In this document: piece after piece, positions 9,524 to 34,914 of the stretch | Numbering within the stretch: the stretch's first letter is position 1 | How the letters are laid out: each line of letters starts with the position of its first letter | From: Buxus sempervirens | Lineage: Eukaryota; Streptophyta; Magnoliopsida; Buxales; Buxaceae | Reading direction: 5' to 3' | NCBI GenBank assembly: GCA_947561395.2 | Contig: OX387186.1 | Span: forward strand, 4,742,835-4,806,834 | DNA: 64,000 nt | Position numbers and translations under genes: made by a program | The notes under the pieces: generated by a model | Told to the model about the DNA's origin: nothing | Database searches by the model: none | The model's input: the letters and a program-made list of their open reading frames with translations, nothing else

Positions 9524-10368
9524 AGAGAGTCGTCACCTGTAGCACGAATCGCACACAGGACCCTTCAGACTGCAAATAGAAAAGTCAATCAAAGCAGCAA
9601 GGAGAAGAAACTTCCATCAGAGATCGACTTCTCATGGTATCTGTGTGTGCCAGATCATTCCTTAACCGCCCTTAAAACCCTTACTTCAAATTCAAACAGA
9701 AACAAAGACTTTACTTGGCATTCTAACAGCGGAAGGAGGATGGCGTTTCGAAATCAGCAGACAACACGAGAGAGACAGAGAGTCGTTTAAGAGACGGAAG
9801 ATGGGAAGAAAAGTCGTTGATTGGTCAGGATACAGGAAAGGAGAATTGGAGTGGAAGCGACGACACATAGGCAAAATCCTTGTGGGGTCCATGCCCACCA
9901 CCTCTCTACGGACCCAAATCTTTTGCTGCTCTTATAAGGCTTCTCCTGTCCCGTCTCTTCCTCTCTAAATCTAAAGCTCACACTCGTCTCGTTCCTTATT
10001 CTGCTTGTCCAGGCAAGTACCCCCTCCTACTGCTACAGAGCAGAAGAGAACTTTGGATTGCTTCTCTGGGCTTATTCGCTGCGGCCGCTCGCTCTCTCCC
10101 GGACCAGCTCTCTGCTCTTTCTTTCTGTATATATTTGTCTTTGTGTATGTCTTTGGGGATGGGTTGCTTGGGGCAGAATTTGGAATTTTTGTTCCCGATT
10201 GTGTTTTTATTCGATCTTTGATCCTTAAGTTTGAACAAAGGTGGGTTGTTTTTCTTTTCAAGTTTCGAACAAAGATTTTAATCCTGGTTTTTGGGATTTT
10301 TGTTCTCCTTTTGTTTACCCTGTCGAGTCCTGGAAGAGCGGGCGGCTATTAAAGCAGCGTTCTTCACC

Positions 10369-11745
10369 ATGGCAACATCAGGGAAAAGTAGCAGATCGAA
10401 ACCGGGGGTCGATGGCGGTGGCATATCTCTGATGGCGCCGACAAACAAGGGACGTCAATGGAAGCCAGTTTTTGAAGAAGCTTCTGTGTCCCCAAGGCCT
10501 CTCAAGAAGACCCGAAGCCCAGAACGTCACGACCCATCTCATTACTCTGCTTCCTTCTCCCACCAGACAACCCCCGAGCTCCCAATCTTTCTCTCTTCTC
10601 CTTCTTTTTCTAGTGCCACGGATGGAGTTCCAGTTTCTGCTCCGTCTTCTTCCTCGCGGCTCGTGTTTCCTTTTGCCTTTGATGGCTCTCAATCAACTGA
10701 AATACCCCAACATTACAGAACGACACCTTTGCCTCTGTTCCAACCCCCACAGCAGCAGCATCAGAATCAGCAGCAAATGATCTCTTTCGCACCTAATAAT
10801 CAGGGGATGGGTTACCCTCCATACTTCATGGGAGAAACTCAATCATCCCAGCATCGGCAGCAGCTTCTCCAGTATTGGAGCGATGTGCTCAATCTCAGTC
10901 CTCGTGGGCGACTGATGATGATGAACAGATTGAGCCACGATGGTGGGCCTCTGTACAGGCCTCCCGGTCCTACGGTCACCACCACCACCAAGCTCTACAG
11001 AGGAGTTAGGCAACGCCACTGGGGCAAATGGGTAGCCGAGATTCGCCTTCCTCGCAACAGGACTCGCCTTTGGCTGGGCACCTTCGACACAGCTGAAGAT
11101 GCTGCATTGGCCTATGATCGCGAGGCCTTCAAGTTGAGAGGGGAGAATGCCCGCCTCAATTTCCCTGAACTTTTCCTCCGCAAGGACAAGACAGACACAG
11201 TAGCTTCGACGGCTCCAAGTTCATCGTCTTCTTCGTCTATTTCCCATGAAAATTTGAAGCCCAGTCGGTTCCCAGAGCAGCTCCAACAACCTCCAGTGGG
11301 TCTCGGTTTTGAGGATCAGCACTTGGAGATCAAGCCTACACCTCAAGGAGACAATTCCAACAATGCTCAGGATGATAGGTCTCATTTTCAGGGCAATTCT
11401 CCTTCTGCATTGGGATCGAGTGAGGTCACGGCAAGCGATGAAGCTCAGGCACCCACCCCAGCATCTGGGACAGGAGATGGCCCTTCAGTGTCTGCTGAAT
11501 TGGTGTGGGGAGATTTGGAAGAAGCTTGGTTCAATGCCATACCAGCTGGATGGGGTCCTGGTAGTCCGGTTTGGGATGACCTCGACAATAGTCTTTTGCT
11601 TCAACCCCATCTTGCAATACCCAATTCCTTCCAACAGGAAGTGGACGGTATTGATCTCCAAGTGCAGCAAGACATCTCCGCGTCAGCTTCATCATCATCT
11701 TCTTCTTGTCCTATGAAGATGTTCTTTAGGAAGGATGGGAACTGA
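10369..11745 (+). CDS. AP2/ERF transcription factor, group I (DREB A-6; ERF053/ERF054/RAP2.4-like)
   Basis: A single exon encodes 458 residues. The start is ATG 10369 in a favourable ACCATGG context; the open frame extends upstream but contains no earlier ATG. The AP2 DNA-binding domain spans about residues 208-266, beginning [20 protein letters not shown], with the [17 protein letters not shown] core and the RLNFP end. The WVAEIRLP signature and the run of shared sequence before the domain place it with group I/A-6 factors, which in Arabidopsis act in drought, heat, light and wounding responses by binding DRE/GCC-type elements in the nucleus. Upstream lie a basic Lys/Arg patch (about 36-45), a Gln-rich segment (about 123-139), and the [13 protein letters not shown]-type motif. 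The C-terminal part is Ser-rich and acidic with VWGDLEEAW and VWDDLD motifs, likely activation regions. It is intact; a CT-rich tract follows in the 3' UTR near 11811-11834. Confidence 0.92.
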
Positions 11746-15021: not shown

Positions 15022-15451
15022 TGCAAAATTAATTTTTAGTGGTGCTTTATAAAAGTATTTAAGATTTAGTTAGCAAAGTTTTGAGTTTTAACTTTTATTG
15101 CACATTTATCAAAATAATTAATTTTTAGTGTCATTTCACTGTTACAAGTGAATTCTTCCAAAAATACCCTTATACAACTTACTTCCAGAACTTGTACAAA
15201 CAATAAATTGACTTGTACAAGCCATTTTAGACTTGTACAAGTTAATAAATTTGCTTGTACCTTGAATGAGTGATTTGTACAAGCCATTTGGATGAGTGAT
15301 ATAAGGGCATTCTTGGAATACTTGATTTGTAATAGTGAAATAGCACTAAAAATTAATTATTTTGATAAAGGTGCAGTAAAAGTTAAAACTCAAAGCTTTG
15401 CTAACTAAATCTTAAATATTTTATAAAGCACCACTAAAAATTAATTTTGCA
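15022..15451. mobile_element. MITE copy A (same family as the DUF1218 intron element)
   Basis: The left arm TGCAAAATTAATTTTTAGTG is mirrored by CACTAAAAATTAATTTTGCA at the right end. Immediately inside, GGTGCTTTAT and AAGATTTAGTTAGCAAAG have inverted counterparts on the right. The interior shares long stretches with the element at 5797-6184, including the repeated CTTGTACAAG motifs. No coding capacity is seen. Confidence 0.8.
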
Positions 15452-15844
15452 GTTTTTAGAGGTGCTTTATCAAAATATTTAAGATTTAGTTAACAAAGTT
15501 TTGAATTTTAACTTTTATTGCACATTTATCAAAATAATTAATTTTTAATACCATTTCAATGTTACAAGTGAATTCTTCCAAAAATACCCTTATACAACTT
15601 ACTTCCGGGACTTGTACAAGCCATTTTAAACTTGTACAAGTTAATAAATTAGCTTGTACCTTGAATGAGTGATTTGTACAAGCCATTAAATGAGTGATGT
15701 AAGGGCATTCTTGGAATAGTTGATTTGTAATAGTGAAATAGCATTAAAAATTAATTATTTTGATAAAGGTGCAGTAAAAGTTAAAACTCAAAGCTTTGCT
15801 AACTAAATCTTAAATATTTTGATAAAGCACCACTAAAAATTAAT
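15452..15844. mobile_element. MITE copy B, adjacent to copy A
   Basis: A second full-length copy in the same orientation abuts copy A, sharing the TGCA border. Its left arm is slightly eroded (TTTTTAGAGGTGCTTTATC); the right arm ends CACTAAAAATTAATTTCCCC. The right end is followed by a roughly 31-bp duplication of AAAAATTAATTTCCCC plus a T-rich tail. The closeness of A and B suggests a local tandem duplication or insertion of one copy into the end of the other. Confidence 0.78.
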
Positions 15845-19712: not shown

Positions 19713-20320
19713 TTAAGTATATTAGAATAACCGTTGGATGGTGTGACCATCCCATGATGAGACATGCAAACCACTAACTCCCTGCATTAATAAAATGGTG
19801 GCAAAACAGTTGAACTTACTAATCAATTAATCCTACGGACTGCACCGTCAGCGTCGCTATTGACAGCAGCGGACCTCAAACTTGGCCCAAACCAGGCCCA
19901 AAGTGGTCACCTTGAGCAGCCATGGAGGTAGCATCAAGGAAGGAATCATTCTTTCTCTCGAGTCTTGGACTTATCCTCTGATACCCTAATGATCTCATTA
20001 CCTGCAACCCCCCACATGATGACCTATGAGCTTGGCATTAGGCAGCTTGGATTACTGAACCGGAGGCCAACTCCTCCCAAATTTTCCCTTTAAAAAAATC
20101 ACGTAGGCTTGGGTAAGAAACAGTTGAAGATAATAAACAAACAGGGGATAGAAAGAGAAAGGGAAGGGAGAAGGAGCAGATAGAGAGAGAGAGAAGCAGT
20201 GAAGAGTTGAGGTCGTTTCGTTTCTTTTGTGTCATTTTCTTTTATTTTCACTCGCGTGTCGCGTCCAGATCTACAAATAAACCCCAAAAAAAGAAAAAAA
20301 AAACGCAAAAAGAGAGAAGC

Positions 20321-20389
20321 ATGAACGACACCATCACCAACGACTACAACAAGGGCAAGACCAAGGCTGTCTTTGCACGAACTGCATAG
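20321..20389 (+). CDS. Candidate uORF (22 aa) in the WD40 gene leader
   Basis: ATG to TAG, 22 codons, starting MNDTITNDYNKGK and ending 202 bp before the WD40 start codon. The 14 codons after ATG all end in C or G in an otherwise AT-rich region, which is unusual for chance sequence. I do not recognise it as a known conserved-peptide uORF. It counts as a uORF only if transcription starts upstream of 20321, which the sequence does not prove. Confidence 0.35.
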   Translation: MNDTITNDYNKGKTKAVFARTA

Positions 20390-20555
20390 GGCTTCGTTCC
20401 TTTATCTGTTCTCTCTCTCTATCTCCGACTCTCTTTACAAATCATCGGATCTGAGTCCCAAGTACGAGCCACAGAGATCGATTGAATTGAATCCTCGGAT
20501 CTCTTCAAATTCCGATTAGATTTTAGATTTTGATCGGATCGAAGCGTGTTCCTGA

Positions 20556-20589
20556 TTCGGGCATTCGCATTCTGATGGGAATGCCCGAA
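20556..20589 (+). promoter_or_regulatory. RNA hairpin immediately before the WD40 start codon
   Basis: TTCGGGCATTC (20556-20566) and GAATGCCCGAA (20579-20589) form a perfect 11-bp stem with a 12-nt loop. The main AUG at 20592 is two nucleotides past the stem. The loop holds the AUG of a six-codon uORF. Such a structure could slow scanning or modulate start choice; regulation is inference. Confidence 0.6.
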
Positions 20590-20595
20590 CGATGA
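20575..20595 (+). CDS. Six-codon uORF overlapping the WD40 start (AUGA)
   Basis: ATG GGA ATG CCC GAA CGA TGA encodes MGMPER. Its TGA overlaps the WD40 ATG by two bases (ATGA at 20592-20595). The arrangement is typical of termination-reinitiation sites. Whether it is translated is unknown. Confidence 0.45.
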   Translation: MGMPER

Positions 20596-23500
20596 CCAGA
20601 GCCGGGGACGAGGAAGAAGAGGAGGAGTGCTTTTACGAATCTCTCGATCGTATCCTCTCTTCTTCGTCTTCTTCCACTTCCGCTTCCGAGGACGACGACG
20701 CCAATTCTCCTAATTATGCTTCCGACCGTCTCCCGGTTCCCAGATTCCCCATGTCTCTCTCCAAGTACGATATCTGGATTTCCGAGCCCTCCTCCATTGA
20801 AGAGCGCCGGAAACGGCTCCTCCGTGAGATGGGCCTTGCCGGCGACCGCTCTCTTTCCCGACTGAAATCCACTGTCACTGCCGCCGACGATAACGGGAAA
20901 GACCGAGGCGGCATTATGGACGGTGACTTTGGGAGATCTATTTTTTCTGATAGTCTTCCGACTCAGCATCAGCGAGGGAACTCTGAGGATGTCTCCATTT
21001 CTGACATCGTGCGGTCTAAGTCTGATGGTGATGCTGATCGTGACTCCTCTTTGTGCCGGCCACCTCACGATCACTGTAATTCCTCCACTTCTTCTTGTAT
21101 TCATTCAATTCGTTCTATTCATTCGGTCGCGGAGATCGGTTCGTCTGTAAATAACCATCTTGTCGTTAAACAACGAAGCAACGGAAGTAGTGGATCTCCC
21201 ACTGCTAACGCTTCTTCTCCGAATAAGCCTCCTACCGGGAAGTCCTCAAGGAGGGTGGAAGAGGAGATCAGGAGCGACTCCACAGCTTTGAACCCGAAGC
21301 CTGACTCGAATTCGTCACCCGTTCTGGGCAATGCCAGTGGTGGGGAATTCGATGAGGATTTGAACTGTAACGGAATTGTCGAGGTCCCTGATCAGGTTTG
21401 CACCATTAAGAATCTGGACAATGGCGAGCAGTTTGTTGTTAATGAGTTCCGAGAGGATGGTATGTGGGACAAGCTTAAGGAAGTTGTGACGGGACGACAG
21501 CTTACAATGGAGGAATTTCAGATGTCCGTTGGGCATTCACCGATTGTCCAGGAATTGATGCGGAGGCAAAATGTAGAGGAATCGAACCGTAAAAGAGACG
21601 ACCCGTACCAAAATGGGAATGGTAGTGTTGGCAGTGGATCAAAGCCAAAGAAGAAAGGCGGCTGGTTCAAGAGCATAAAGAATGTTGCCGGTACAGTAGC
21701 TGGTCATAAGGAGAGGCGGAGCAGTGATGATAAAGATACATCATCGGACAAAGGTGGGAGAAGGTCGAGCTCTGCAACTGATGACAGCCAGGATATCTCA
21801 TTTCACGGCCCTGAGAGGGTTAGAGTTCGGCAGTATGGAAAGTCTTTCAAAGAGCTTACATCGCTCTACAAGAGCCAAGAGATACAGGCCCATAATGGAT
21901 CCATATGGACCATCAAGTTCAGCTTGGATGGCAGGTATCTTGCGAGTGCTGGAGAAGACTGCATAATTCACATCTGGCAGGTCCTGGAATCAGAGAGAAA
22001 GGGTGATTTGCTGATGGAGAAGCAGGAAGATGGGTCACCAGAACCAGCATTGGCAACATTCCATGTAGACAGCCATTCAGAGAAGAAGAAGAAGAGAGCA
22101 AAGTCATCAATTAGCCGGAAATCTGTCAACTTGGACCATATTGTGGTGCCGGAGACTGTTTTTTCGCTTTCAGAAAAACCCATTTACTCCTTCCAAGGGC
22201 ATCTTGATGACGTGCTTGACCTCTCATGGTCCAAGTCTGAGGTTAGTTGCTATCTCATACAATGATTATTTTCATTTCATTTCTAGCATTCCTTACTTTG
22301 TGCATGAGGATTAGGTTTGAATTTCTCAATTTAATCTTCATCTATCATCCTCCTTTATTGTCTTTCTGGGGAAATAGAGTTGATTAGATCATTTTAAGTG
22401 AGAATGAGTCGTTGATAATTCAATAAGCTGGAACCAGCGTCTTAAGCCACCTCAGTGATCACCACACACATGCCGGAAATAAGATCTCAGGATATTTCTT
22501 GTGGGATTCCAGAAATGGAGAAGTACTTGTAATGCTTGTAAACAATTTATATGATGAGATTAAGGGGGAACAAAATGTACAATGAGATTTGTTGAAGTTA
22601 ATAAATTTAGGTAGTCTCCTTGCAAAATATGATCATAGAAGTTTCTGTATGTTAAATGATGCAAAATCATTTATTTCAGATACTTCTTCCCTTGGCAACC
22701 ACCCATAACCAACTATTTTGCTTTTATGGTTAAAGTCAGCATTTCTTGTTTCCCACTTTTAAATCCCTGTACAATATAGGGTTATTGTCATTCAAGTCTG
22801 ACAATTATAATGTTTTTACTAGATTCTGGGGAAATGAGATTAATTTTTCTGCCATTCTCGTTACCCATGTGCACCTCTGAACGTGACCCATACTTTAAAA
22901 GATATCAAAACTCTATGTATAATTGACGTTGTGAGAAATGCTTGGGTATACATTTCTATATGAGTGGACTCAAGGCCAAAATTATTATTTATGTTTTTAT
23001 ATTATTGTCAACAGTTGTTTAGGGTGGCCACAAGAACCTGGAAAAAGTCTTTTTTAAGATGGAAAGGAAAATTTAAGGTTAATTTTCCACTATTTTCTCA
23101 AAATTTAGGACATGCTTAATAGCGTTATGGGCCAAAGTAAATGTGATTTAAGTAGTTAGAAAATTTTTCAAAGCCTAATGCAGTAATGGAGGGACTATAT
23201 ATGAGGGATCTATATTTGTTGATCCAAGCAGTTGTGTTATGGCTTGGCTATTGCAGCTGTGGCATATACCCAATGGAATATAAGGGCCTTAGATAGCTGT
23301 CCTTAATGATATGGTCAAATATTTTTAATCCAAGTAGATATTGTAGTTTCAAATTTAATTGATGTAACAGGTTTTACCACGTAAAAGCTTCTATGGAATT
23401 TGATTTCCTGGAAAAGAGGTTTGGTTTGGCTACTTATTATTTATTATTTGGTTAGAGAGTTGATAAGAGTGTCAAAAATGTGTGATGTTTTCTCTTTTGT

Positions 23501-26500
23501 TTTATTGAATGGAAAAATGTCAAAAAAGCTGGTGGTGGTCATTCCGTAGCTTGTAGGTGGTGGTGCTGTTACTGGAGGAGGTGACATTAGTGTTCTAACT
23601 AGATATGATGGTAATGGTGTTGGTATTATTGTTTGAGGTGATAGCCTTGCTGTATGTTATGATAGTGGTGCTGTTATCATTGATGATGGTTGAACAACTG
23701 ATGCCATCATGAAATTTCGTGGTGGCATTATTATAAATGGAGGTCGTGGTGTTGGTGGTGAGCCAGCATTGAAGCTAGTAGCTATGGCATTGCTGTTGTG
23801 ATGGCACTGGACAATTCATGATTGAAATGTGGAAGTGATATCATTTTTTAAGATGGTTTTTGTGTCAGATGGTGGCCATGACAGTGTCATCACCAAAGGA
23901 GGTAATGGCATTATGGTTGGAGTTGTACTATTGCAGAGGTGATATTCATGTTGTAATTGATGGTGTTAGTGTTGTTAATACTACTGATGGTGGTGATGGT
24001 ACTGTTATCGGAGATAAATACAAATACAAAGGAAGGAACTTAAGAGGTGTTGGATCTAGAATGATGGTATATTGGTTTTTGGATCTTGTAACTTTATCTT
24101 GGGCTAGACCTTCAAACTTCCATAAGCATCTAAAAGCGTTGATTTGTTGTGGTTTGGTAGCTTGTTTAGTTGTTTTTCTAACAAACTCAGGTTCGTCTAT
24201 TGATATTGGTTGTGGTCAAAATACAATTAGCAAAAAAAGGTGTTGGATTATGTTTGGGATCTAAAGGAAAATAAATTATGTCATGATTTATTGAAGTAGA
24301 AATAAGATTAGATTTCTGAATATTCAGTGTAAAAATTAAAAAGTTGGATATTACACCAGAGAGCTAGGTAAAGTTTTCATCAAAAGCAATCATTCAGGAA
24401 CCTCTCAAAATGCAAAGAGAAAATTATTTTTTCTGCATAGTATTTTAAATGATATTTACTATCTTATTTCTATTTTTGAAGGTCGCTCTTTCTCCATTTG
24501 TTATCTTGGTGATGCATCATGTATAACTTTTTAGTGGAGACGTGCATGACTATGATTTGAAAACCTTAATTGAAAAAATGAGTCATTGGTGACCCTGAGA
24601 TTTATTCTTTGAAGGATGAATGAAGATTCACATTGCAAAGAAAGTCTATGTTCTAACTCCCATTGTTGAACAAGTGATGGAAGACTCGGGACATGTTCAA
24701 TGGCATTAATCAAAATAACAGTGCAATATTGCTGACTTTAAGCAAAAACCATTACTTAGGATGATGGCCAAAACTTAAGGAACAGATCAGTATCGAGATT
24801 GAAAAGTGAAATACATTTGCCCTGCTGACTTTTAACAAAAAATGTTACTTAGGATGATAGCCAAAGCCTAAGGCACAGATCACTATCGAGATTGAAAATG
24901 AAATACATTTGCTTTGCTGAAATCTAACATAAGAACATCAAGATTTGAGGGAAGACAAATTGGCAGTCATTAATTTCAAAATATGATTAGCCATAACAAA
25001 GATAGATGGCTATAAAATTGGATAAAATTTTGCTTGAACACTGATTGGATGGGGCAGTAACAAACTTTACCACAAATTTACCGCCCCCCGGCAGCCCCAC
25101 CATCACATTTGGAAGGTTCTTTATTTGGAAGTTCTTGGGTTTCCACAAATGAATCACTATGCCCAAGAAAAAATGGAACAAAAACTTTCTTCATTTTTTG
25201 ACTGGATTCTAGATTCAAAAAAGTTTCCAAAGCTTTATTTGTCCTTATCAAGCTCAATATCTTGTAATTTAGATATGAATTGAAAGAAGTTATGGTTAAA
25301 TTGAATGATGAATTTCTTATTTAAACCTATGTTACAGAATGTTGGGCAACCAAAAAAAAAAAAATACACATGTTCAAAAGATGAGTGTTATCGGGATGAG
25401 AATGCTAAGACGGACATGTGACAAAAAATAGAAAAGACAAAGTAAGAACCGAAGATATTCGAAAGTAGTTCGGCATAGCATGCATGGGGAAAATTTTGAG
25501 TTAGTTTGGAAATATAAAGTGGATATTTTGAGATACACCTGTAAGAAGGTATGAGTGGATGCATATCGAAGGGCCTAAGAGATCAGAAGAAGACCTAAAA
25601 AGACATGGAAGGAGTTAATAAAATATTGCTTACATAAACATAACTTAACTAAAGATATGATTTTTGATAGAGTGGGATGGAGATCAAGATTTGTGTCACC
25701 AACCCCAGAGAACTGGCTTATGTTGATGATGATGACGTTTAAGAGTTCTAATTGGTTGGAAAAGCTAGTTTATGAACCTGATCACATTTTATGATTTGGT
25801 GGTTTTATCGAAAATTTCTGGTCCATAAAATGTTTAGATGTCCAATAGTTTACCAGAGATAACAGGAATTTCATGCCTTACAATTGTCTACCTTTTGTTG
25901 CTGTTCTTGGGAGGCTGCAGTTTTTGTTTCATGACTGGTTTTTTCCTTTTGAAGTCACCGGGTTTTAGTTTTATTTTTGTGGTGCTTTGGCCTTTGTCAC
26001 CTCTGTCTGTGTTAGTCACTACTCGTAGGTGCATAACTGAATATTGGTGGTTCATTTTATTACATATTTTATCTGCCTGGATCCCACATCTTGTAGGATC
26101 TTTGTCTCTGTTTTTATTTGGATGAATTTTCATTACTTGTAAAAAAAAAAAAAAAAAACAGTTTACCATGTGTTTTAGTTTGAGAAATCGTTGCTTGAAT
26201 TAAGAGTGGAAGGAATTCCTTATTCTAAATTTCAGTCGTTTGATTTTTAAAATACCATCCAACCGATTCCTTCTATATATTCTAGACTTCAGAGGATCTG
26301 TTTACAATTCCGTGAAATTCATGATACTGTTTTCTGCATCAGAAAGACCAATTCCTAGTATCATGCCTGATGACTATGTGACCCCTTAAATGCATTTGTT
26401 TGTTTATTACAGAAAGCTTAGATTTGGCAGCTCAAATATATGGAATAAAAGGCTCCTAAATTCAAGAGAAGAGATTGAATATTAGTGGTCTACATATTAG

Positions 26501-29500
26501 ACATCATTAAATTCTGTTAATAAGCAGAAGAATGGAAGTATGTGTCAGTGATACATTCTAACTAAAAACGCTGCATGGTCTTAGACGTGAATTTTGACCA
26601 CTGCATCAACTAAAGATGGCTGCGACTGCGAGTTTTGCTTTTGTAAGCTTGAAGGAGGCATGTAATGATTTTGTGGTTCATTACTACTATTTTTAAGTGG
26701 TGCAATACTCTTATTGTTCAGTTCAACAAAATGGCTGCAAGTATTTTCAGTGATCTCATAAGGGGATTGTATATGTTTTATCTACTTAGAAGTTTTTATG
26801 CAACTTTATGGTGATGGGTTTGCCATTTTTTGTTTGGTTGTTTTATGCAACTTTATTGTTATGGGTTGCTATATTTGCTCATCTATGTTCATTTTTGTTG
26901 ATTAAAACTTTTGATATGCAAATATTTTGAAATCAATAGAAAAAACAAGAAGTAACTTCACAAAAATATACGTGGTTTGGCTGTGCCTGCATCCACGAGA
27001 GAGAAGGAAGTTTTCCAATCTATTAAAATAAATTAGGGTTACAACTTATGTTTCCAATCCCCAATTATAATCCTAACCTGGTAAATTAGGAAAAATCTCC
27101 AATGTACCCCTGCATTCCCCCAACCTATGGTTTGACCTGGCACAAACCAGGTCTACCATCAAGGGAGGGACCTCTTCCCGTGGGTGGAGTGAAGGCCATC
27201 CCCCTTTGAACCCAAAGATTAGTGTAAATAATTTTTGCTGAATATGAGTTACTCTCTCTACCATTTTGTATTATTTTTTGTTCATAGCTTATTTCACAAA
27301 GCTGTGTATGTATACCCTGGTTAAAATATAGATCCTTTCTTAGAATCAGACTATAAATTTTCTGATTACATAAATGTTTTTTCAATATATATGATATGAT
27401 GGTGTACTTTCATTTCCAGTATTTGCTCTCATCCTCGATGGACAAAACAGTAAGGTTATGGCACATGTCTAGCAATTCTTGCTTGAAGGTGTTTTCACAT
27501 AGTGATTATGGTAAGTTTCAGATGATCACTAGACTACATTTTTATGCGTATTTTGCTTCTTCACCATCCAAATGGTGCCTTCTGTAAAATGTTATCGTTT
27601 CTCAGTTTGTGATTTTTCTCATTGGCTAATTACATCACTGTTGTTTGAACTTGCCATTTGTCCCAGTAACTTGCATCCAGTTTAATCCTGTTGATGATAG
27701 ATACTTCATTAGTGGATCATTAGATGCTAAGGTTCGAATATGGAGCATACCAGATCGTCAAGTTGTTGATTGGAATGATTTACATGAGATGGTCACTGCT
27801 GCCTGCTATACACCTGATGGCCAGGTCAGTTCACATCTCATGAGTTGTCTTCATTAATTGTTTAATACTTTTAAGTACAGTTACACCAAGAAAATTTATT
27901 TTTGTGCTATAGTCTTTGGTTCAAGGATTTCTATTTTTTGACTTTTGAAGGGTGCATTAGTTGGTTCATACAAAGGGAGTTGCCGTTTATATAACACCTC
28001 TGGTATGACTATAAAATCTCTTTTCTGTTTGTAATTATTGGTGTCTTCTTGTGCTGATTTTATGTTATGTCCTTGGATGCTTCATTCAAAACCATGTTAC
28101 GCTGTTCTTTTGAAGAAAAAGAAAAAGAAAATTGTATTTAGTGATTCCCCTTTTTGAAATATTACTTTTCACAAGAGTAGACTGATCGTAGCTATTCTGC
28201 TCCAGATATCATTGTTTGATCATAAGGTGAGTGTATAAATTCAATTTGTCCCATTGTCTCATATTTCAGAAAATAAGCTGCACCAAAAGCGTCAGATTGA
28301 TCTACAAAACAAGAAAAAGAAATCCCATCTGAAGAAAATCACTGGCTTCGAGGTAATAAACTTTCCATACCATACATGCTTCTTCAGATATGCTACTGCT
28401 TGTTCTTGTGTAAGTGTTTTATCCTTTTGATATTTAATGATATTATATTATATTGAAAATGGATTTGTTTTGTTTTTCTCTTCTTTGAGCTCCAAGTTCG
28501 CATGGGCATAATAAAATAAAGAATTTATAAAGAGGAAAATATGATCGGAAAAAGGAGTAGGATATGGACAATCAATCTTTGAAATTATGCTTGTGGGATT
28601 GATCCATGGGACTTTTGCATGTGTGTGCGTGTGTGGATAACCAGTGTACTGATTAGAAAACACGCATGCAGAGCGAAAGGAAACATCAAATGAGAAAAGA
28701 TTTCCGTTTTTTTAAATTCAAGTTTAAGATTGCAAAACTTAAGCAGAGTGAGAGGAGTTCATCAGTTTGGGTTTCTTAATTGTCCACATGTCTCAAGCGT
28801 TTCATGGTTTTCATTTGCTGAGCAGTTTCATTAAACAGTTTTCCCCAGGAAGTTCTTCGGAAGTGCTTATTACATCTGCAGATTCAAGAATTCGAGTCAT
28901 TGATGGTGATGATCTAGTTCACAAATTCAAAGGTAGACTGCGTTTTCATTGTCATCATCATTTTCTAGAGCTATGTTGAAGTTCTTTGACATGCTTTTTA
29001 AATAAATTTAACAATGCAAAACAGGATCATTTGTAAACTCAAGGCTCTCACTTATAATCTTTGATTATTGTCCATTTCTTATATGACATATCTTCAGCTG
29101 GTATTTAATGCTACAGAAACTTGCCCACTTTCAAATTGATTGAACTTTATAGTGAGCTCAGTTGGAGACCTTTCATATGTTTAATTAACTATTCACCATG
29201 CAAAAACTCTTTACCTTTTCAATGTAGTGAGACACGGATTGTCATTAACTGCAATTTCTGGACATGTGTCTCATTTATAGTTGATTAATGACCCAACAGT
29301 GGGTGGGCGTCACCTATTAGTGTTCCAAGGCCAGAAAGCAGAATGATCATATGATTGTTTACAATTTCCAGAATTTTTACCATGTGATTTTTTTTGTGAA
29401 TTTTCCACAGTCCAAATGGAGTAATACTGATTCTGATATCATCTGTTGATGTTTACCTTTATCTTTCAATATTTCTTCTGTTGACCTGTTAAGGGATGAT

Positions 29501-31682
29501 TCCTTGTCCTCCACATGGCAGCCACATTTCAACATACAACCTTAATGAAGTCCAAGCTTTAGGTATTATGTTTTCAGCATTTTCCCTCATATTAGGTAAT
29601 TCTATTTTAAGTTTGTTTAGGCATGGTCATTATAATCATCCTCAAAGCCTTACCGTACTTGTTGGAATAGATGGTAGGAATTTGATTTCTTCAGCAACCC
29701 TATCAATGTTGAGTATTGAGACCATTATTTTCTCTCTGTCTCTGTGTTCTTATTTGTCATCCCCTGTCTCTTCATAACCATTTCAGGTACATGATTCATG
29801 CTGCTCTCTTTTGAAATTTTCTTTTTCGTTTGCTTGTAAAATGCTCAATCACCCAGCTCTAATTATACAAGCAACTTCAACTTTGTCTCCACCTCTTGTC
29901 CATAATCGATTCAAGATGATCCAATTGATTGCTTTTACATCCTGATTACCATTATTGGAATTCACAATAGTTCTGAATGCAGCCTGCATACGTTATGTAA
30001 CAGGCTAAAATATTATCCAATCCTTCTTATTGTAGTATTAGCTTGTAGGCTACCTTAATGTTTCAAATATCCTGATATCACAATAATGAATTAAAGACAA
30101 GCTGCAGATGCTTGTAAAATGTTTCTCTCAATACCCAAGGTGTACGTATAACTTTTAACCAGTAGCAAATTCAGCACGAGAATATCAAGGATAGTTACGC
30201 AATAAAAGAAAAAAGCCTAATTCTGAAAAAGAATTAAAACTTTCCTTTTGGGAGGATGAGAATAAAAGTTTGCTCAAGTATTTTTCTTTTGCTGTTACTG
30301 AATGGGTAGTGTCAAACTTTTGTAAGCCTTGTATTCTGCAGTTGTCATATCTTCTTCTTTTTTTAAGCCTGCAAAACACTTCATAAGTTTCTTTATTTCA
30401 TTCAAGATCTTTTTATCCTGTTGAAAACATTTCATTGAACATCGATAGTCAGGATCCTTTGTTTCATTTGATCTGTTTAGATGATTTGAGTGATCCATAC
30501 CTGATTTGAGTTTTGTGCTGTTGAGAAGAAACTCCATTCCAATTGAAAATGGGGAACTGTTAGATTTGAACGATCCTTGTAATTGATTGCGTGCTCTATA
30601 GTAGTTGAAGCCTTACATCTGTCGCTTATTCCCTAATATCCCAAGAGAAAAGAAAAATAAAGATAGACCAATTATACTACATTTGCTTCACAAAATCAGT
30701 GACTCAATTCAACTTTCATGCTTGAACGGGTTCTCATTTATAATGCATGTTTGGGAATTTGTGACAATGGATCCCTTTTAACGGTTTTGGCTTGTAATTG
30801 TTTATCTGAGATTCTCATTTATTTCCAGTTAGTTTATCTGATAGCAGGCTAGTTTCGTATAGAGCAGGCTAGTTTCGTGATTCTCATTTATTTCCAGTTA
30901 GTTTATCTGAGAAACTTGGACACATTTCATTCATACAACAAATGGATATGTTCCTTCAAAATCCTTTATATGGTTTGGGAATGCAAAGACCAAAAAATAT
31001 CTTCCAATACTCTTCTGTGCTGATATAAGCATATAAGTTATCAAGATTTTGACAAATTTGATAGGGTAAGTTGGTATTATGTTTGGCAGGGTTTCGTAAC
31101 ACAAACAGCCAGATATCAGCTTCGTTAGCAGCGAATGGGAAGTATGTGGTTTGTGCAAGTGAGGACTCATACGTGTATGTGTGGAACCATGAGGTTGATT
31201 CTCGACCTAGCAGAAGCAAAGGTGTTGCTGTCACACGTGCTTACGAGAATTTTCACTGTCAAGATGTATCAGTGGCTGTTCCTTGGCCTGGCATGGTTAG
31301 CACCTGGGGGATGCTGGATGGTTGTAACAGGGAACAAGATGGACTTGACCATGGTGATGTGGTGTCCATGGCCAACCATCCACCTAGCCCGGTCGAGGAG
31401 ACAGGGCAGGCCAATTCACCATTGGCACTGGGTTGCACCAATAGCCCTCTGTATGGTACCATTTCATGTGCAAACAACAGCTATATCTCTGACAGAATTG
31501 CAGCAACATGGCCTGAAGAAAAGCTTCTTGTGGCCAGTAAGAACCGTAGTCCCCGGACCAGTGTGGACTTATCCAATGGGGCAATGCAAGGTAAGTCAGC
31601 ATGGTGCATGGTGATTGTAACCGGAGGCCTTAAGGGTGAAATCAGAACTTTCCAAAATTTTGGATTTCCAGTTCGGATTTGA
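20592..31682 (+). CDS. WDR44-like WD40-repeat protein
   Basis: Seven exons (20592-22241, 27420-27510, 27667-27824, 27951-28002, 28270-28352, 28839-28932, 31090-31682) encode 906 residues. The acidic, Ser-rich N-terminus contains the plant-family motif [15 protein letters not shown] and is followed by a long disordered region with a basic patch around residues 350-370. WD40 repeats run from about residue 430 ([20 protein letters not shown]) through [38 protein letters not shown] and later blades to [12 protein letters not shown] near residue 735. A Lys-rich segment (KKKKSHLKK) sits between blades. The C-terminus ends [18 protein letters not shown]. Animal WDR44 binds Rab11 in membrane recycling; plant relatives are poorly characterised, so function is inferred only as a scaffold. 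Intron 1 (5178 bp) and intron 6 (2157 bp) are unusually long, and intron 1 holds LINE and retroposon relics. Two uORFs and a hairpin precede the start. Confidence 0.93.
23520..24010. repeat. Degenerate GGT/GAT triplet-rich tract in WD40 intron 1
   Basis: About 490 bp are dominated by GGTGGT, GATGGT and GTTGTT triplets with stops in all frames. It resembles an expanded and decayed trinucleotide repeat rather than an exon. Confidence 0.6.
24731..24925. repeat. Two-copy tandem duplication, about 92-bp unit
   Basis: Two adjacent diverged copies share TTACTTAGGATGATGGCC, ACAGATCA, TATCGAGATTGAAAA and GAAATACATTTGC. Intronic; no function seen. Confidence 0.75.
25375..25745 (+). mobile_element. Decayed 3' end of a LINE-type reverse transcriptase gene
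   Basis: Frameshifted translation gives MLRRTC, then [12 protein letters not shown], then [11 protein letters not shown] and [10 protein letters not shown] in order. These correspond to the characteristic C-terminal tail of a widespread plant LINE-type RT (RMLRWMCG, IRNEDIR, RGRPKKTW, DRNEWR). It is followed by a GAT-rich tail at 25717-25738. Several stops and frameshifts are present, so it is a dead relic, in sense orientation within WD40 intron 1. Confidence 0.75.
25856..26159 (+). mobile_element. Retroposed insertion with poly(A) tail and 9-bp target duplication
   Basis: A roughly 304-bp segment ends in an 18-A tail (26141-26158) and is flanked by AGTTTACCA at 25847-25855 and 26160-26168. 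These are hallmarks of target-primed retroposition. The body is T-rich and contains no recognisable protein domain. It is either the 5'-truncated 3' UTR of an L1-type LINE, a SINE, or a retrocopy. Confidence 0.72.
26940..27115. repeat. Dispersed repeat, copy 2
   Basis: This copy carries ACGTGGTTTGGC, a CCTGCATCCACGAG motif, AGGGTTACAA and a CCAATCCCCAATTATAATCCTAA tail in the same order as the copies near 8.9 and 38.7 kb. It lies in WD40 intron 1 about 300 bp before exon 2. Confidence 0.5.
30185..30537 (-). other. Antisense coding-like stretch in WD40 intron 6
   Basis: On the minus strand a roughly 80-codon open stretch (30295-30537) contains [16 protein letters not shown] and KKLMKCFAG, charged and compact like real protein, and continues after a frame change. 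I do not recognise the family. A decayed retroelement polyprotein fragment is possible; chance is also possible. Confidence 0.25.
30801..30912. repeat. Short local duplication in WD40 intron 6
   Basis: ATTCTCATTTATTTCCAGTT followed by AGTTTATCTGA occurs twice, separated by two copies of AGCAGGCTAGTTTCGT. The near identity indicates a recent slippage or duplication. Confidence 0.8.
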
Positions 31683-34062: not shown

Positions 34063-34914
34063 CTACTTCCCGTTTGGTTTGTCCCCAAACTCGTCCCACG
34101 TTTGCTTGAGATCCGTGGAAACTAATGTTGCGAAATCGTCCCAGTTCCAGGTGCTCGTCGAATCCAAAAAGTTGTTACTCGTGGGTAACTGCCACTGCGG
34201 CGTAATACCGCTGCTGGTGATGACGGGATCGACTACAGTTTCGGTCTCGCCACCGTAGTTATAGCCCTCCGATGGTGAAAAGGAGGCGGTGACTGAAGAG
34301 GAAGCGTTGTCAAAAGAGATTGAGCTTGTGAAGGGAAATTCAGAGATTGAAGGTAGAGGTAGAGATAAGGTTGAATCCAGGAAGGAGTTGTTGTTGCTGT
34401 TGATAGAAGAATCTGGGTGTAACGATGGTGGTAAAGAAGATGGTGTGTGCAGCAGGGCGCGGTACACCATTTCGGAGATGTTCTTGCTATCCCCAAGTGC
34501 AAAAGGTAGATGCTGAAACTGCTGGCGGGATTGAATTTCGATGTTGGTATCACGTCCATGATGATTGACCTGGTTGTTTATGGTGGTGGAGGTTTTGGCC
34601 GTCTTGACGCGCTTATTCTTTCGTCCACCACCAACAGGAACGTTTCGAAGCGTACCTCCTTTGGTCCAGTGCCTCCTACATGTCTTGCAGAAATGGCGGG
34701 GCTGCGACCTGTTGTAGTTGTTGTAGTAACAGAACTTTGTGTTTGTAGAATCACACCTTGGGCAATTTAGAGGCTCTTGTTGTTGTTGCTGCTGCTGGTG
34801 TCTCACTTTCACTTGAGGAGGGTTTGGGAGCTCCAAAGCCCCCACCTGCAACAAGGTCTTTTCCCAATCCAGTTGGAGCCCATTACAGGAAACTTGTTTC
34901 GAACTCAAACCCAT
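34063..34914 (-). CDS. Dof-type zinc finger transcription factor
   Basis: A single coding exon on the minus strand encodes 283 residues, from ATG at 34914. The Dof domain spans about residues 49-102 with a CX2CX21CX2C zinc site (C51, C54, C76, C79): [18 protein letters not shown], then [14 protein letters not shown] and [12 protein letters not shown]. Dof proteins are plant-specific nuclear factors that bind AAAG cores. A Gln run (40-46) precedes the domain. The C-terminal half is Ser/Asn-rich, with the acidic tryptophan motif TWNWDDF near the end, a plausible activation patch. Two positions differ from the family consensus I know: Arg instead of Leu after YYNNYN, and His instead of Tyr in RRYW. 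The zinc ligands are intact, so the protein is probably functional. The subgroup is not assigned. Confidence 0.93.

Follow-up and report, generated by a model that had tools for sequence, protein, structure and literature searches.

The start codon of a WD40-repeat gene, at position 20592, lies two bases beyond a perfect 11-bp hairpin and overlaps the stop codon of a six-codon upstream open reading frame (uORF). The analysis covered a 64-kb stretch of DNA from Buxus sempervirens, referred to here as the window, and all positions are numbered within it. We consider it probable, though by no means certain, that the region is simply an ordinary plant 5′ leader with a uORF, where a hairpin of moderate stability lies ahead of the start codon by chance and there is leaky scanning past the upstream AUGs (uAUGs). 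The first-pass annotation had read the coincidence of hairpin, uORF and AUGA overlap as a translation-control device; our analysis leans against this.

The first coding exon of the gene occupies 20592–22241 on the forward strand and encodes a WD40-repeat protein (Pfam PF00400, E = 3e-11), with the GT donor at 22242 placed by eye. The reading frame that begins at 20592 opens with MTRAGDEEE, is 557 codons long and is uninterrupted as far as the stop codon ending at 22265. There is an in-frame stop upstream at 20553, and 20592 is therefore the first AUG of the main frame. The PDB was searched with the first-exon protein, and the matches listed (the best 60 of 154) were WD40 or WD40-domain proteins, matched mainly near residues 404–489. 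PF00400 also matches three of the four frames examined further downstream (27366–27584, E = 0.00044; 27630–27854, E = 1.3e-06; 31065–31679, E = 0.0018), of which only 27630–27854 passes the Pfam cut-off; the frame at 28752–28976 gave no PF00400 match in the Pfam search. On the basis of the three matching frames, the gene probably ends near 31.7 kb and has a first intron roughly 5 kb long, with exon borders drawn by eye. Within this probable long first intron, a 93-bp unit occurs in about two copies at 24730–24920. A 193-codon antisense ORF (20523–21104, reverse strand) overlies the start of the gene, and is probably a by-product of the composition of the coding strand.

The hairpin and both uORFs lie on the forward strand. 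The 5′ arm of the stem, TTCGGGCATTC (20556–20566), pairs with the 3′ arm, GAATGCCCGAA (20579–20589), by Watson–Crick pairs at 11 of 11 positions, leaving a spacer of two bases (20590–20591) before the main ATG. The perfect 11-bp stem, the 12-nt loop and the end of the stem two nucleotides short of the main AUG had all been noted on first inspection, and all of these coordinates hold. In five fold contexts, the outermost pair has a predicted probability of 0.75–0.91 and the remaining ten at least 0.97. A uAUG had also been placed in the loop. The uAUG at 20575 does fall in the 12-nt interval between the arms (20567–20578), but the predicted fold pairs it rather than leaving the loop open: RNAfold adds three pairs and leaves a 4-nt loop, with CAU at 20568–20570 pairing with the uAUG at 20575–20577 across a G–G mismatch. 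The unpaired probability of this uAUG is 0.20, 0.04 and 0.00 by base in all five contexts. The minimum-energy hairpin is predicted by RNAfold at −21.8 kcal/mol, and the bare form with an 11-bp stem and 12-nt loop at −17.4 kcal/mol.

The minimum-energy fold of 101 nt contains a predicted outer helix of 8 bp around the hairpin (20547–20554 with 20603–20610) and places the main AUG within a 13-nt unpaired stretch, with an accessibility that varies with context. The overall stability predicted for this fold around the start codon is unremarkable (z = −1.81; 8 of 200 shuffles were equally stable). Nor are the hairpin arms unique words, since the arm words GAATGCCC and GGGCATTC occur three and six times on the forward strand, the hairpin site counted.

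Such a fold could serve as a tunable brake, sequestering both uAUGs within the hairpin and delaying 43S complexes, with Ded1/DDX3-class helicases (RH11/RH37/RH52 in Arabidopsis) setting the supply to the main AUG. We regard this as possible but doubtful. The high probability of the stem pairs in five contexts and the predicted pairing of the uAUG are in its favor, as is the documented presence of helicase-regulated structure near plant uAUGs (PMC10499604). The Arabidopsis structures described by Xiang et al. (2023, PMC10499604) share with our site a plant leader, a uAUG and local double-stranded RNA near a start codon. However, those structures are 3′ of the uAUG and the helicases that unwind them relieve repression of the main AUG, whereas at our site the stem-loop surrounds the uAUG and would be melted by the time the uAUG is read. 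The 11-bp stem encloses the uAUG, and beyond the uAUG there is just one arm of the predicted 8-bp outer helix, whose other arm is upstream. A value of −21.8 kcal/mol is also moderate, and the thresholds for scanning blocks correspond to stronger folds. In the 40S subunit, the P site is about 12–15 nt from the leading edge; a subunit whose leading edge has just reached the hairpin would have its P site around 20540–20544, where there is no AUG. By the time the P site arrives at 20575 or 20592, the stem would already be open, and the hairpin would therefore slow all scanning and could not by itself choose between the AUGs.

The uORF has the sequence ATG GGA ATG CCC GAA CGA TGA (20575–20595) and encodes MGMPER. 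Its TGA (20593–20595) overlaps the main ATG as ATGA (20592–20595), and both the six-codon uORF and the overlap are present as originally described. A second in-frame uAUG at 20581, with four codons from there, is located inside the 3′ arm (20579–20589). The −3 position carries most weight in the context of an AUG. The bases at −3 and +4 are, respectively, C and G for the first uAUG (20575), G and C for the second (20581), and A and A for the main AUG (20592). By the rule given in PMC5902531, where leaky scanning is allowed when either favorable context base is missing, all three AUGs have a moderate context, and some leaky scanning is therefore expected at each uAUG. The first uAUG is without a purine at −3 while the main AUG has A, and we count this in favor of leaky scanning.

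In the ordinary leader that we prefer, and if, as we infer, transcription starts upstream and the leader is translated, scanning 43S complexes would melt the stem using helicases. A fraction would initiate at the moderate-context uAUGs at 20575 and 20581 and translate six or four codons; lacking space to reload, most of these ribosomes would be lost for initiation at the main AUG. The complexes that did not initiate at the uAUGs would reach the main AUG, with its A at −3, by leaky scanning. The net outcome, in the direction and size that we infer, would be a mild to moderate constitutive drop in WD40 protein. Reinitiation after short uORFs is described as dependent on the intercistronic distance (PMC5972666), and in human TP53BP1 reporters a 30-nt spacer after a 5-codon uORF gave 4–5-fold higher use of a start codon relative to another (PMC10193022). 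At our site there is no such distance, the uORF stop and the main AUG being overlapped, and where spacing is absent reinitiation is usually inefficient. Counting against an ordinary leader, the uORF may capture many ribosomes, given that all three AUGs are moderate; a G occupies −3 of the second uAUG; and DENR–MCT-1 might, according to PMC5972666, lift the spacing requirement for reinitiation.

The mechanism originally proposed was a structure-gated, AUGA-coupled termination–reinitiation, in which ribosomes terminate after MGMPER and then reinitiate at the main AUG that overlaps its stop codon. We consider this unlikely. The overlap of stop and start that characterizes TURBS systems is present exactly, as ATGA at 20592–20595, and there are precedents both in viral AUGA and UAAUG coupling and in mouse GAD and human SLAMF1 mRNAs, for which stop–start overlaps with TURBS-related sequence are described (PMC5972666). 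Calicivirus AUGA coupling is reported to rely on an upstream 18S-binding motif with the core UGGGA (PMC5972666, PMC5902531), and in influenza B the 6-nt core is AUGGGA (PMC3035654). The leader contains AUGGGA at 20575–20580, which matches the core of TURBS motif 1 as given in PMC5972666 and PMC3035654; this is a resemblance at the level of the motif. The calicivirus and influenza B systems, as described in these sources and PMC5902531, have in common with our site an AUGA overlap (UAAUG in influenza B), a UGGGA core and an upstream stem-loop, but they involve a long ORF rather than a six-codon uORF. Their motif 1 is near the 5′ boundary of the stretch that is translated through, which is about 45 nt in influenza B (PMC5972666, PMC3035654). 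In contrast, the sole UGGGA in 20001–20592 is at 20576, at the very start of the uORF, where it doubles as the uORF start and ends 12 nt before the restart codon, which is the wrong spacing for TURBS. In addition, the uAUG and motif are largely paired in the predicted fold, and a UGGGA no more than 90 nt upstream is unremarkable, being found before 40 of 402 forward-strand ATGA sites. Victoriviruses, on the other hand, are described as needing just the 32 nt immediately upstream of the overlap, without motif 1 (PMC5972666). The presence of AUGGGA and the GAD and SLAMF1 precedents thus keep coupled reinitiation alive. A more specific version, in which the uORF start AUGGGA doubles as a stem-presented 18S-binding motif that holds the post-termination 40S subunit for restart at AUGA, as a miniature stop–restart module, we find very improbable.

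We then consider how often such an arrangement arises by chance. There are seven perfect stems of at least 11 bp (loop 3–20) in the window, the leader hairpin counted, whereas Markov sequences averaged 0.42 across a set of 12. One of the seven is a TA run, and another two are copies of a single repeat. Any such stem was present in 1 of 400 Markov copies of 20100–20640. Since the actual DNA has more long stems than the simulations predict, simulated backgrounds overstate the rarity. A stem of at least 11 bp ends no more than 10 nt upstream of 2 of the 2,644 ATGs in the window on both strands, this site counted, where the total comprises every ATG triplet rather than known starts. Among simulated leaders, 458 of 4,000,000 (leader composition) and 342 of 4,000,000 (window composition) had such a stem, or about 1e-4. 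A GC-containing 11-bp stem so near a start codon is thus rare, and this counts against the ordinary leader.

Short uORFs ending in an AUGA overlap are common: of the 2,644 ATGs, 823 occur as ATGA, and a uORF of 2–10 codons terminates at 96 of them. We count their frequency (96/823), together with the unexceptional local folding energy (z = −1.81), in favor of the ordinary leader. Given ATGA, stem and uORF occurred jointly in 37 of 4,000,000 simulated leaders of leader composition and in 44 of 4,000,000 of window composition. The simulations suggest that the two arise independently, with the uORF found in 37 of 458 hairpin leaders as against 316,491 of 4,000,000 (7.9%) overall, and in 44 of 342 as against 11.6% at window composition. 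The gene number used for the genome-wide expectation is 30,000, and the combination is then expected, assuming independence, between about 0.1 times (simulated stem rate) and about 0.8 times (stem rate of the window with this site included). Hairpin-plus-uORF cases of this kind would turn up in a genome scan that looked for striking coincidences in general.

The only AUGs in 20121–20591 are at 20321, 20575 and 20581. Two uORFs (20321–20389 and 20575–20595) begin upstream of the main AUG, making the leader uORF-bearing at the sequence level. Its three ATGs compare with a mean of 5.3, and three or fewer were found in 428 of 2,000 Markov leaders. The upstream uORF (20321–20389) encodes 22 amino acids, MNDTITNDYNKGKTKAVFARTA*; its start codon has A at −3, and its codon usage is mildly coding-like. 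Its codon score was reached by 189 of 5,000 shuffles and its GC3 by 106 of 5,000, and it gave no Pfam match at E 0.01. A uORF at least as long is held by 1,582 of 2,000 Markov leaders, so that a coding peptide here is a weak lead; as a candidate peptide uORF it is better than MGMPER.

It is also conceivable, if quite improbable, that the cell does not use this arrangement, either because transcription begins downstream or because the main start is another AUG, such as the in-frame one at 20751. A motif scan of 19801–20600 gave no match to TATA[AT]A or CCAAT, which would favor this reading. CT-rich matches occur at 20411–20419 and at 19951, however, and a transcription start at the former could exist and would keep 20556–20595 in the mRNA; the uninterrupted ORF from 20592 also argues for the start as drawn.

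Rfam searches of 20000–20800 gave six matches at E ≤ 1, all under the gathering scores and taken as chance. Four are on the forward strand in the purine-rich/TC-rich start of the coding exon (20601–20684), one is on the reverse strand at 20571–20674, and one is at 20084–20267. Neighboring ORFs encode an AP2 domain (10291–11745, forward strand) and a Dof zinc finger (34063–34914, reverse strand). Two near-identical 11-bp hairpins at 15211–15242 and 15610–15641, 399 bases apart, suggest a local duplication.

The plant AdoMetDC leader has overlapping short ORFs as seen here, but the overlap joins two conserved uORFs and not a uORF and the main AUG. The human SLAMF1 long-isoform leader, as presented in PMC5972666, belongs to a cellular mRNA in which the stop of the last uORF overlaps the main AUG, and it has UGGGA-related sequence; it differs in being mammalian, with a UGAUG overlap and a 29-codon uORF. 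In the rice OsMac3 5′UTR, described in PMC11897733, a plant leader likewise has a uORF in predicted stem-loops, and changing the uORF AUG raised output 1.8-fold. However, that uORF is 34 amino acids long, there are several stem-loops, and it ends within SL2 rather than at the main AUG.

Relatives of the first-exon protein were confirmed neither among 44 pattern stretches from bacterial and archaeal contigs nor among 13 from viral contigs, in scans with a single-protein query that reaches close relatives only. This is expected for a plant gene in such collections. WD40 and transducin terms gave no match in the main text of the papers searched on conserved-peptide uORFs (CPuORFs). Literature searches combining WDR44, plant and uORF gave no match, those for CPuORF and WD40 gave only irrelevant matches as judged by their listing, and those for six Arabidopsis locus codes gave none on translation, as judged by title.

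The hairpin and MGMPER uORF are a real sequence feature, for which the simplest reading is an ordinary uORF with a somewhat repressive effect on translation. At present the site is a further candidate among regulatory leaders. Should its stem and stop–start overlap prove conserved, it would offer a compact case in plants of direct coupling between a uORF and the main ORF.
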